DNA of 45,855 nt. Origin: Bacteroidales bacterium (lineage in GTDB: Bacteria > Bacteroidota > Bacteroidia > Bacteroidales > UBA1715). The notes beneath the pieces are model-generated. The model did not search any database, had not been told where the DNA came from, and worked only from the letters and a program-made list of their open reading frames with translations. Shown here one piece after another: positions 7,297-45,855 of this stretch. Position 1 is the stretch's first letter. Each line of letters starts with the position of its first letter. The position numbers and the translations under genes are program-made. Where the stretch lies: assembly GCA_027858745.1 (NCBI GenBank), contig JAQICB010000148.1:1-45855 (forward strand). The letters are read 5' to 3'.

Positions 7297-7332
7297 AACC
7301 TGAGTTCGACGTAATTTTTCGAGTTCAGATTA
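7297..7332 (+). repeat. Dispersed hairpin repeat, copy A
   Basis: This full 36-nt copy reads AACCTGAGTTCGACGTAATT then TTTCGAGTTCAGATTA. The two arms CTGAGTTCG and CGAGTTCAG pair over 9 bp if two G-U wobbles are allowed, so it folds as RNA from this strand but poorly from the other. It lies 24 nt after the ndk stop, sense to ndk, and just before the terminator. Confidence 0.85.
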
Positions 7333-11453: not shown

Positions 11454-11501
11454 AAACAGCAATCTTCATCTGAAAAATTATATCGAACTCAGGTTATAAG
11501 T
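11454..11501 (-). repeat. Dispersed repeat, copy C, variant form
   Basis: Read on the minus strand: TTATAACCTGAGTTCGATAT then AATTTTTCAGATGAAGATTGCTGTTT. The left half is identical to copy D, and the right hairpin arm is replaced by TGAAGATTGCTGTTT, the same 15 nt found at the very end of the window. The TAA stop codon of the upstream membrane-protein gene is part of the repeat (TTATAACC). It is sense to that gene. Confidence 0.75.
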
Positions 11502-12873: not shown

Positions 12874-12884
12874 ATTCATTTTAT

Positions 12885-12997
12885 AACCTGAGTTCGACGT
12901 AATTTTTCGAGTTCAGATTAGCTCCGCTGAGCTCGTCCTTTGTCCTCGGTTGATATAAAAAGCTGTTTATCAAGGCAAATTATATCGAACTCAGGTT
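12885..12997. repeat. Dispersed repeat, composite copy B with 13-bp inverted ends
   Basis: A full 36-nt repeat (12885-12920, + orientation, same sequence as copy A) is followed by a 64-nt spacer and an inverted partial copy. The ends AACCTGAGTTCGA (12885-12897) and TCGAACTCAGGTT (12985-12997) are perfect 13-bp inverted repeats, giving a 113-bp MITE-like unit. The spacer carries its own short stem AGCTC-CGCT-GAGCT and GGTTGATATAAAAAGCT, which echoes the flank of copy E. No ORF is inside. The copy nearest glyA is sense to glyA. Confidence 0.8.
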
Positions 12998-13015
12998 TAT
13001 ATGTTTCGACTATAA

Positions 13016-14302
13016 TTACACATCACCTTTAAACATAGGGAATGCATTCATCATTTCATTTACCTGTTTTTTAACCGTAGAAATAATAGATGAATCTTCA
13101 TGATTCGATAAAACAGAATCAATAAAATTGACAACCTTAATAATATCCTGCTCAACCAACCCCCGAGTTGTAATCGCGGCAGTTCCCACACGGAAACCCG
13201 AAGTTGTAAACGGGGTTCGACTATCAAATGGCACCATATTTTTATTAATAGTAATATCAGCTTGAACTAAAGTGTTTTCGGCAACTTTACCGGTCATGTC
13301 AGGAAATTTCGAACGAAGATCAATAAGCATTGAGTGATTATCGGTTCCGTCAGAAATTACTTTATATCCCTTATCAACGAACTGTTGAGCCATTACCGCC
13401 GCATTCTTTTGCACCTGAATCATATAATTTTTATATTCATCTGTTAATGCTTCACCAAAAGCAACAGCCTTAGAGGCAATTACATGTTCGAGCGGGCCAC
13501 CTTGAATACCCGGAAAAACAGAAAAATCAAGCATTTGCGTAATCGTTTTCAAATTGCCTTTCGGTGTTTTCACCCCCCACGGATTTTCGAAATCCTCTTG
13601 AACAAGAATTAAGCCACCACGAGGACCACGAAGCGTTTTATGAGTTGTTGTTGTAACAATATGACAATGAGGAAAAGGATTATTCAAAAGCCCAGTTGTA
13701 ATCAATCCGGCAGGATGAGCAATATCAGCCATTAAAAGTGCCCCAACTTTATCTGCAATAGCTCGCATGCGTGCGTAATCCCAATCGCGAGAATAAGCAG
13801 ACGCTCCGGCAATAAGCATTTTTGGTTTCACCTTCAAAGCAGTTTTTTCCATATCATCATAATCAACACGTCCGGTTTGTTCATCAACCTTATATGCAAC
13901 AGGATTGTAAAGGATACCCGAAGAATTAACCGGAGAACCATGTGATAAGTGACCACCATGCGATAAATCAAACCCCATGAAGGTATCTCCCGGTTTAAGC
14001 ACCGTTAAAAAAACCGCCATATTTGCCTGAGCCCCCGAATGAGGCTGAACATTTGCCCAAGTGGCACCAAATAATTTCTTCGCACGGTCAATTGCCAACT
14101 GCTCAGTTTGGTCAACAACCTGACATCCGCCATAATATCGTTTTCCCGGATAGCCCTCAGCATATTTGTTTGTCAAGCATGAACCCATAGCGTCCATTAC
14201 CTGCGTACTTACAAAATTTTCTGATGCAATTAGTTCAATACCCTCTTTTTGTCTTTGATGCTCATTCTGAATAAGATCAAAAATGATTGAATCTCTGTTC
14301 AT
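13016..14302 (-). CDS. glyA: Serine hydroxymethyltransferase
   Basis: GlyA interconverts serine and glycine with tetrahydrofolate, the main one-carbon source; it is a PLP enzyme in the cytoplasm. The 428-aa length is normal. Signatures are [48 protein letters not shown], the PLP-Lys motif [15 protein letters not shown] and the C-terminal [15 protein letters not shown]. It is a single-gene unit with its own -7 box upstream and a repeat plus terminator downstream. Confidence 0.97.
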
Positions 14303-34960: not shown

Positions 34961-36199
34961 ATGAAGCATTTTTCAAATTATACCTTCTCTCTTATAATTC
35001 TAATGTGTACAACACTTATTACAAGTATAGGGTTTGCACAAGACAAAGCCTTATTTCCCTCATACAACACTGCTCCTCTTCCACCGGACAGCACCGAAAT
35101 GTCGAGTAATGCTTGGGAAATTGCCGCTCAAATGGGCTTAGGGTGGAATATTGGCAACACATTAGAAGCAACCGGGGGCGAAACAGCTTGGGGGAATCCG
35201 CAGGTAACAAAAAAACTTATTGATGAAGTAAAGAAAAACGGATTCAATTCAATTCGTATTCCCTGCGCATGGGATCAATATACAACGAGCAGTAAAACCG
35301 TAAAAATAAAAGAGTCTTGGTTTAAACGTGTACAAGAAGTTGTAGATTATTGCATTGAAAACGATATGTATGTTATACTTAATATACACTGGGATGGCGG
35401 CTGGCTCGAAAATAACTGCACGCCCGACAAACAAGTAGAAAATAATGCAAAACAACAAGCTCTCTGGGAGCAAATTGCGTCCTATTTCCGCGATTACGAC
35501 GAACGACTTCTGTTTGCCGGAACAAACGAACCCAATGTGAACAATGCAGAACAAATGGCAGTGTTACACTCCTACTTACAAACATTTATTGATGTAGTTC
35601 GTGCAACCGGCGGACGAAATGCATACCGAGTTCTCATTGTTCAAGGACCGTCTACCGATATTGAAAAGACCAATTCGCTGATGAAAACCTTACCAAAAGA
35701 CACGGTAAAAAATCGATTAATGGTCGAAGTACATTACTACACCCCCTTCAATTTCTGCGGGCTTACCGAAAATGCAGACTGGGGGCGTATGAATTATTAT
35801 TGGGGCAAACCGTATCTATCAGAAACCGATACCCTTCGAAATCCGACTTGGGGAGAAGAAGATGCTGCCGTTAAATATATGGCAATGATGAAAGAACAAT
35901 TTGTAGAAAAAGGTATTCCGGTAATTTTAGGTGAATATGGAGCAATACGACGAACAATGTTACCCCAAGATATTGTACAAACAAACCTCAATTCTCGTGC
36001 ATATTATGTGAGATATATTACACAACTAGCTATAGAAAATGGTCTAATTCCATTCTATTGGGACGAAGGTAGTCTTAAAAATCACGGATTTGGTATATTC
36101 AACCGACATACCGGAAAAGTTTTTGATTACCAAATGCTCAATGCAATAATTCAAGGAGCACGAACTGCTGACAATTATTATGACCTGAATTCGATATAA
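34961..36199 (+). CDS. GH5 endo-beta-glucanase, GH5_4-like (xyloglucanase candidate)
   Basis: The 412-aa enzyme has a signal peptide ending near GFAQ. The catalytic domain (~45-400) has LGWNIGNTLEATGGETAWGNPQ and SIRIPCAWDQY, NIHWDGGWLENN, acid/base Glu ~190 in LFAGTNEPN, VEVHYYTPFNF, nucleophile Glu ~325 in VILGEYGAIRR and FYWDEGS. These fit GH5 subfamily 4, which contains Bacteroides BoGH5A and other endo-xyloglucanases alongside cellulases. There is no linked CBM; binding is probably done by the lipoproteins upstream. The last codons (DLNSI) and the stop are encoded by a dispersed-repeat fragment, so the C-terminal tail is recently altered. Confidence 0.9.
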   Translation: MKHFSNYTFSLIILMCTTLITSIGFAQDKALFPSYNTAPLPPDSTEMSSNAWEIAAQMGLGWNIGNTLEATGGETAWGNPQVTKKLIDEVKKNGFNSIRIPCAWDQYTTSSKTVKIKESWFKRVQEVVDYCIENDMYVILNIHWDGGWLENNCTPDKQVENNAKQQALWEQIASYFRDYDERLLFAGTNEPNVNNAEQMAVLHSYLQTFIDVVRATGGRNAYRVLIVQGPSTDIEKTNSLMKTLPKDTVKNRLMVEVHYYTPFNFCGLTENADWGRMNYYWGKPYLSETDTLRNPTWGEEDAAVKYMAMMKEQFVEKGIPVILGEYGAIRRTMLPQDIVQTNLNSRAYYVRYITQLAIENGLIPFYWDEGSLKNHGFGIFNRHTGKVFDYQMLNAIIQGARTADNYYDLNSI

Positions 36200-36222
36200 T
36201 TAATTAACTTAAAACCTGAAGT
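36183..36222 (+). repeat. Dispersed repeat, partial copy G at the GH5 stop
   Basis: ACCTGAATTCGATATAATT differs by one base from the left half of copies C and D; a second AACCTGAAG begins 21 nt later. The right hairpin arm is missing. The repeat supplies the last GH5 codons and the TAA stop. Confidence 0.55.
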
Positions 36223-40251: not shown

Positions 40252-40287
40252 TAACCTGAACTCGAAAAATTACGTCGAACTCAGGTT
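40252..40287 (-). repeat. Dispersed hairpin repeat, copy E
   Basis: On the minus strand: AACCTGAGTTCGACGTAATT then TTTCGAGTTCAGGTTA. It matches copies A and B except one base that restores pairing, giving a 12-bp stem with two G-U wobbles. It follows the response-regulator terminator by 32 nt and is sense to that gene, antisense to the converging GH29 gene. Confidence 0.85.
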
Positions 40288-45736: not shown

Positions 45737-45855
45737 AACCTGAGTTCGATATAATTTTTTAGGTTCAGAACGCTTATAAATAGTGAGGTTCAATCAAAAA
45801 TAATGAAATAATAACGGCTTATTTTAAATTATTTTTGAGCTGAAGATTGCTGTTT
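45737..45855 (+). repeat. Dispersed repeat, copy D, extended form cut by the window edge
   Basis: AACCTGAGTTCGATATAATT then TTTTAGGTTCAG (45737-45768) matches the family, with a weaker right arm. About 70 nt later the sequence ends in TGAAGATTGCTGTTT, the same 15 nt that follow the left half of copy C, so D looks like a longer version of that element. It is sense to the preceding lipoprotein operon. Confidence 0.65.

Follow-up and report, generated by a model that had tools for sequence, protein, structure and literature searches.

An internally deleted copy of a probable IS982-type MITE next to glyA in a Bacteroidales genome

The 113-bp span at positions 12885-12997 of the window, i.e. of the whole stretch of 45,855 nucleotides analysed here (bases 1-45855 of contig C108 in a genome of 2.92 Mb and 169 contigs), is in all likelihood an internally deleted copy of an IS982-type MITE that was moved in trans by a DDE transposase of the IS982 family. 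This assignment is based on the terminal tip and, in two genomes, on the target rule that the element has in common with IS982 elements of related Bacteroidales. The family to which the copy belongs is a non-coding element of about 300 bases that is present at well over a hundred places of the genome.

Anatomy and copies of the element

The features of the window that are relevant to this interpretation are the following.

12886-12996, plus strand: MITE core of 111 bp by the IS982 convention (start at ACC), left end at 12886
12881-12885, no strand: left target-site duplication TTATA, including the first A of the 13-mer as first delimited
12997-13001, no strand: right target-site duplication TTATA, from the sequence and the 5-bp TNNNA rule
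12886-12897, plus strand: left terminal inverted repeat ACCTGAGTTCGA, with the same tip on IS982 copies
12985-12996, minus strand: right terminal inverted repeat ACCTGAGTTCGA, from the sequence
12888-12916, plus strand: left subterminal stem CTGAGTTCGA / TCGAGTTCAG, from the fold and from solo copies
12920-12937, plus strand: internal hairpin AGCTC-CGCT-GAGCT followed by CGTC, inside a segment of about 32 bp
12977-12983, plus strand: deletion scar AAATTAT, of which the full-length element has two copies at a distance of 183 bp
7297-7331, plus strand: second copy, left end only
11460-11495, minus strand: third copy, shortened right end
36182-36201, plus strand: decayed right-type end
40253-40287, minus strand: 35-bp mini form AACCTGAGTTCGACGTAATTTTTCGAGTTCAGGTT, flanks not matching
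45737-45855, plus strand: longer copy truncated by the contig end, right end present
13016-14302, minus strand: glyA, serine hydroxymethyltransferase, with the MITE just after its stop codon
12841-12873, minus strand: terminator-like stem and T-run beyond the MITE, probably the glyA terminator

The non-coding 113-bp span comprises the MITE core and a flanking A and T. Its perfect 13-bp inverted ends, AACCTGAGTTCGA at 12885-12897 and TCGAACTCAGGTT at 12985-12997, lie exactly where the preliminary description had placed them, and their inverted match extends imperfectly to 21 bp with two mismatches (AACCTGAGTTCGAcgTAATTT / AACCTGAGTTCGAtaTAATTT). The internal hairpin was likewise confirmed at 12920-12933, and the spacer of 64 nt is correct only if the 36-nt dispersed repeat at 12885-12920 is regarded as the left unit, the distance between the 13-bp ends being 87 nt. 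The segment of about 32 bp that carries the hairpin is missing from some copies (L100:4488, L107:7100, L106:10656, L112:14270 and L053). When folded as a single strand, the 113 nt reach -41.4 kcal/mol, compared with -21.2 for shuffled sequences (z -6.0), and the left subterminal stem forms 10 bp as RNA, including two G-U pairs. A search of the element against Rfam yielded no family close to its gathering score.

The 13-mer of the ends occurs in 172 exact copies in the 2.92-Mb genome, whereas the reversed pattern used as control gave none, and the ends are therefore far beyond chance. Statistics on pairs and flanks were obtained from 1.16 Mb of sequence, window included, that had been picked for containing ends. 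The 189 ends located therein are of two types, left (AACCTGAGTTCGACGTAATTTTT) and right (AACCTGAGTTCGATATAATTTTT), which consistently differ in having CG or TA after the 13-mer. Defining an element by facing ends less than 600 bp apart resulted in 41 pairs of 81-297 bp, each of which consists of one left and one right end, and a full-length cluster of 290-297 bp provided a 296-bp consensus whose length is insufficient for a transposase gene. The family is hence short, non-coding, bounded by terminal inverted repeats and dispersed in many copies, as is characteristic of MITEs. A small non-autonomous element had been among the initial proposals, to be abandoned if the genome contained no further paired copies and orthologous sites showed no length variation; many further pairs were found, along with length variation among the copies and the target-site duplications described below.

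Moreover, of the 105 contig ends examined, 25 terminate within the MITE, which thus accounts for some of the fragmentation of this assembly. MITE sequences of up to 100% identity are located on L053 and L061, both of which have been assigned to other members of the Bacteroidales (GH48; Prolixibacteraceae GH41), where they occupy contig ends and have flanks without a match in the window genome; these cases represent either horizontal transfer or co-assembly chimeras. Diverged relatives were detected in another genus of the family (L240 and other sites of G002 and G005), with 72-74% identity over approximately 160 bp of the interior, and a contig of the Flavobacteriaceae (L057:6546-6580) contains three tandem copies of the tip AACCTGAGTTC ahead of a MITE-like end.

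Target sites and the probable link to IS982 transposases

Counting outwards from the 13-mer, the fourth base is T at 183 of 188 ends and, with the element starting at ACC, flanks of the form TNNNA are present at 180 of the 188 ends and on both sides of 38 of 40 pairs. An exact 5-bp duplication was observed for 20 of the 40 pairs, compared with 2.8 in shuffled pairings (maximum 9), and a duplication with at most one mismatch for 32 pairs, compared with 13.4. The excess is restricted to 5 bp, no other duplication length being overrepresented. The family accordingly has the target-site duplication of a MITE, which in the window copy is TTATA on either side. A 3-bp duplication had been our first reading of the flanks and was rejected: the two readings are inseparable by sequence alone, and the 5-bp TNNNA reading is the more economical one, which also accounts for the near-invariant T and A. 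Since elements of the IS982 family begin with AC (PMC7335449), the A that opens the 13-mer may be assigned to the target. Exact duplications depend on the length of the pair, with 9 of 14 up to 130 bp, 9 of 17 in the middle range and 2 of 9 above 280 bp, a distribution that recombination between long copies or misassembly of short reads would produce. The half of the pairs without an exact duplication counts against the IS982 model, which needs recombination or misassembly as an extra assumption.

The published end motif of IS982 elements is AC(N)6T(N)5TT, and target duplications of 2-10 bp have been reported for the family (PMC7335449). The MITE end ACCTGAGTTCGAYRTA fits this motif with AC, T9 and T15 and carries A instead of T at position 16; it was counted as an IS982-type end on the basis of agreement at all but the last base. 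The tip AACCTGAGTTCGA borders IS982 transposase genes in other Bacteroidales, namely at L063, whose transposase matches NF033520 (E 3e-46), and in the genomes G046, G004 and G001. G046 provides two loci (L042 and L044) with ends on both sides of the IS982 gene, in G004 the tip is situated at contig ends, of which one encodes an IS982-like C-terminus (NLIAGLIAYCFLPKKPAI), and G001, a member of the same genus as the window genome, shows a match of 12 of the 13 tip bases beyond a C-terminal IS982 fragment (L087). Altogether, one or both ends of the IS982 elements of four other genomes agree with the MITE in 12-13 of 13 bases. Likewise, the first target position is T at 15 of 16 ends in G004 and G046 (background frequency of T 0.35), and the target rule of the MITE holds for IS982 copies in G004, G046 and G001; IS982 ends with an AACG tip (the right end of L063, L064 and L076) do not follow it. 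Considering these data, a transposase of the IS982 family would recognise the ACCTGAGTTCGA ends in trans and would insert the MITE at a TNNNA target, duplicating those 5 bp.

A protein search of the window's assembled genome, which is incomplete at multi-copy repeats, revealed no IS982 transposase, and the single weak hit of a family-model search turned out to be an IS5-family transposase with different ends. Multi-copy insertion sequences tend to be missing from such assemblies. With no IS982 gene in the assembly of this genome, we infer the mobilising enzyme, which may have been lost or, since multi-copy elements break contigs, may be absent from the assembly. The interior of the MITE contains no IS982 coding remnant and has nothing recognisable in common with the IS982 elements seen beyond about 20 terminal bp; direct descent from one of them is, with the similarity confined to these tips, no more than a possibility.

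Mobilisation by another DDE family, for instance by the IS5-type element of the same genome (L074), is improbable. An IS5-family transposase is indeed encoded in the genome and its ends, (TTAA)GGTGAGTTCTAAAAATT, have TGAGTTC in common with the MITE, but both the tip and the flanking TTAA are unlike ACCTGAGTTCGA and TNNNA, while IS982 elements provide the near-identical tips in four genomes and, in G004 and G046, also the target rule.

The preliminary description had also proposed a REP doublet (BIME), i.e. two opposed palindromic REP units that are spread by a RAYT, a Y1 tyrosine transposase. The MITE resembles the GTAG and CGTC REPs (PMC3733652) in being a short intergenic palindrome, often between convergent genes, with a paired inverted layout and, behind its hairpin, the CGTC that tags one REP superfamily, and genes of the Y1/RAYT type are present in the genome. 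Its ends, however, are not two REP units but differ consistently and pair as the left and right terminus of a single element, they match those of IS982, a DDE-type element, and the CGTC hairpin, with a loop of 4 nt (4-5 nt in described families), has a stem of 5 bp instead of 8-9 bp. Furthermore, a target duplication is not expected from RAYT/Y1 chemistry, and the 5-bp duplications already largely refute this reading. Mobilisation by a RAYT finds no support at the best RAYT locus either, the one examined for this link: this locus (L175) carries no MITE end within 1.5 kb and no CGTC hairpin. A REP doublet is thus very improbable. The internal hairpin was also considered as an independent mobile CGTC REP and rejected, as it occurs in this genome almost exclusively inside the MITE.

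Sequences related to the inner hairpin were noticed elsewhere. In G009, at least five different genes (L222-L226) appear to begin with a 37-bp motif that is about 89% like the inner hairpin segment, and read on the other strand (ATGAACCGAAGTACAAAGTACGAGCTCAGCGGAGCTAAA) this motif gives them the common N-terminal sequence MNRSTKYELSGAKK. Two sites of G000 (L238 and L239, on C90 and C92) have, just past a stop codon, a related sequence of about 25 bp, GTGTTTGTCTNNNAAANTACAAGTT, immediately ahead of the inner GCTTCGCTGAGCTC hairpin, which suggests a second repeat family.

Internal deletions and mini forms

Apart from one deletion of 183 bp, the window copy is identical to the 296-bp consensus. 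AAATTAT is present at both borders of the deletion, providing 7 bp of microhomology at the junction, and an identical 113-bp copy is located at another genomic site (L104:9730-9842). Other short classes, of 125 bp (five copies) and 219 bp (two copies), have junction repeats of their own, TTTAT and AAATAATTTAA. Most single-deletion copies with few mismatches show a junction microhomology of 3-11 bp, where random deletions average 0.8, no junction being readable in poorly fitting copies that lack the 32-bp hairpin segment or have more than one change. The 113-bp form would accordingly have arisen from a full-length copy that lost 183 bp between the two 7-bp repeats, probably by slipped replication with the assistance of the palindromic structure. 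The series documents with unusual clarity a stepwise shortening at short direct repeats, from 296 to 219, 125, 113 and 35 bp.

The smallest members are 15 single units of 34-35 bp in which an end and its inverted partner are separated by about 9 bp; the 35-bp mini form is the left arm with its inverted subterminal copy, occurring alone. An exact 5-bp duplication flanks 8 of the 15, compared with 1.5 expected, a count that is somewhat favoured by the listing of partner sequences after inspection of the data. A deletion at TCAG would convert the full element into most of these mini forms. Two of them (L145:13509-13543 and L146:16104-16138) end in CAGATT, a sequence from inside the left end of the MITE, directly against an exact duplication and are poorly explained by a plain left-right deletion. 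It is conceivable, if rather doubtful, that the 35-bp form is itself mobile and that the transposase can accept, in place of a terminal end, the inverted copy of the tip that lies subterminally. If so, IS982-type MITEs can shrink to REP-like palindromes that still transpose. The shortening of the copies suggests one route to REP-like palindromes that is free of a RAYT.

The glyA locus and comparison with known systems

At the glyA locus, the MITE separates the gene from the terminator-like stem. Because of this position, the glyA transcript probably includes it as a hairpin in its 3' untranslated region, and the RNA copy would, as modelled, form a long hairpin. With respect to the genomic placement, 33 of 34 pairs with genes on both sides are located outside genes according to a crude gene caller, 16 of them between convergent genes. 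The strong fold on both strands, this distribution and the location in front of the terminator would also be compatible with a regulatory or terminator-like RNA that is kept by selection in the glyA mRNA and elsewhere, its mobility being long past. There is, however, no element downstream of glyA in relatives, copies are found at numerous unrelated genes, where they decay freely and have acquired a variety of deletions, and the intergenic bias is already expected from selection against gene disruption, so that this alternative has hardly any probability. In the nearest genomes (G001 and G009), which are about 75% identical at glyA, the MITE is absent and an empty site is not defined at base level.

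The IS982 elements of Bacteroidales (L063, G004, G046 and G001) and the MITE have identical or nearly identical tips of 12-13 bp, but the former encode a transposase and measure 0.75-0.87 kb where complete; that of L063 is flanked by an apparent 8-bp duplication (TATTGATA). MITEs derived from IS982 elements are already known from Cardinium, in which MITECca01, of about 240 bp and with 169 copies, was derived from the IS982-family element ISCca4 (PMC9769881). Both elements are non-coding, mostly intergenic and found in Bacteroidota, their similarity to IS982 elements is limited to the ends, and IS982-type ends are described for MITECca01 as well. MITECca01 differs in that its parent is present and shares a few more internal bases with it, whereas the MITE of the window has no parent in the assembly and shows graded deletions down to 35 bp. 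The latter is a new family of such elements and, judging from a limited literature search, its TNNNA rule, its series of deletions and its mini forms seem to be new. These data add a further well-documented family with a strict TNNNA target rule to the IS982-type MITEs.
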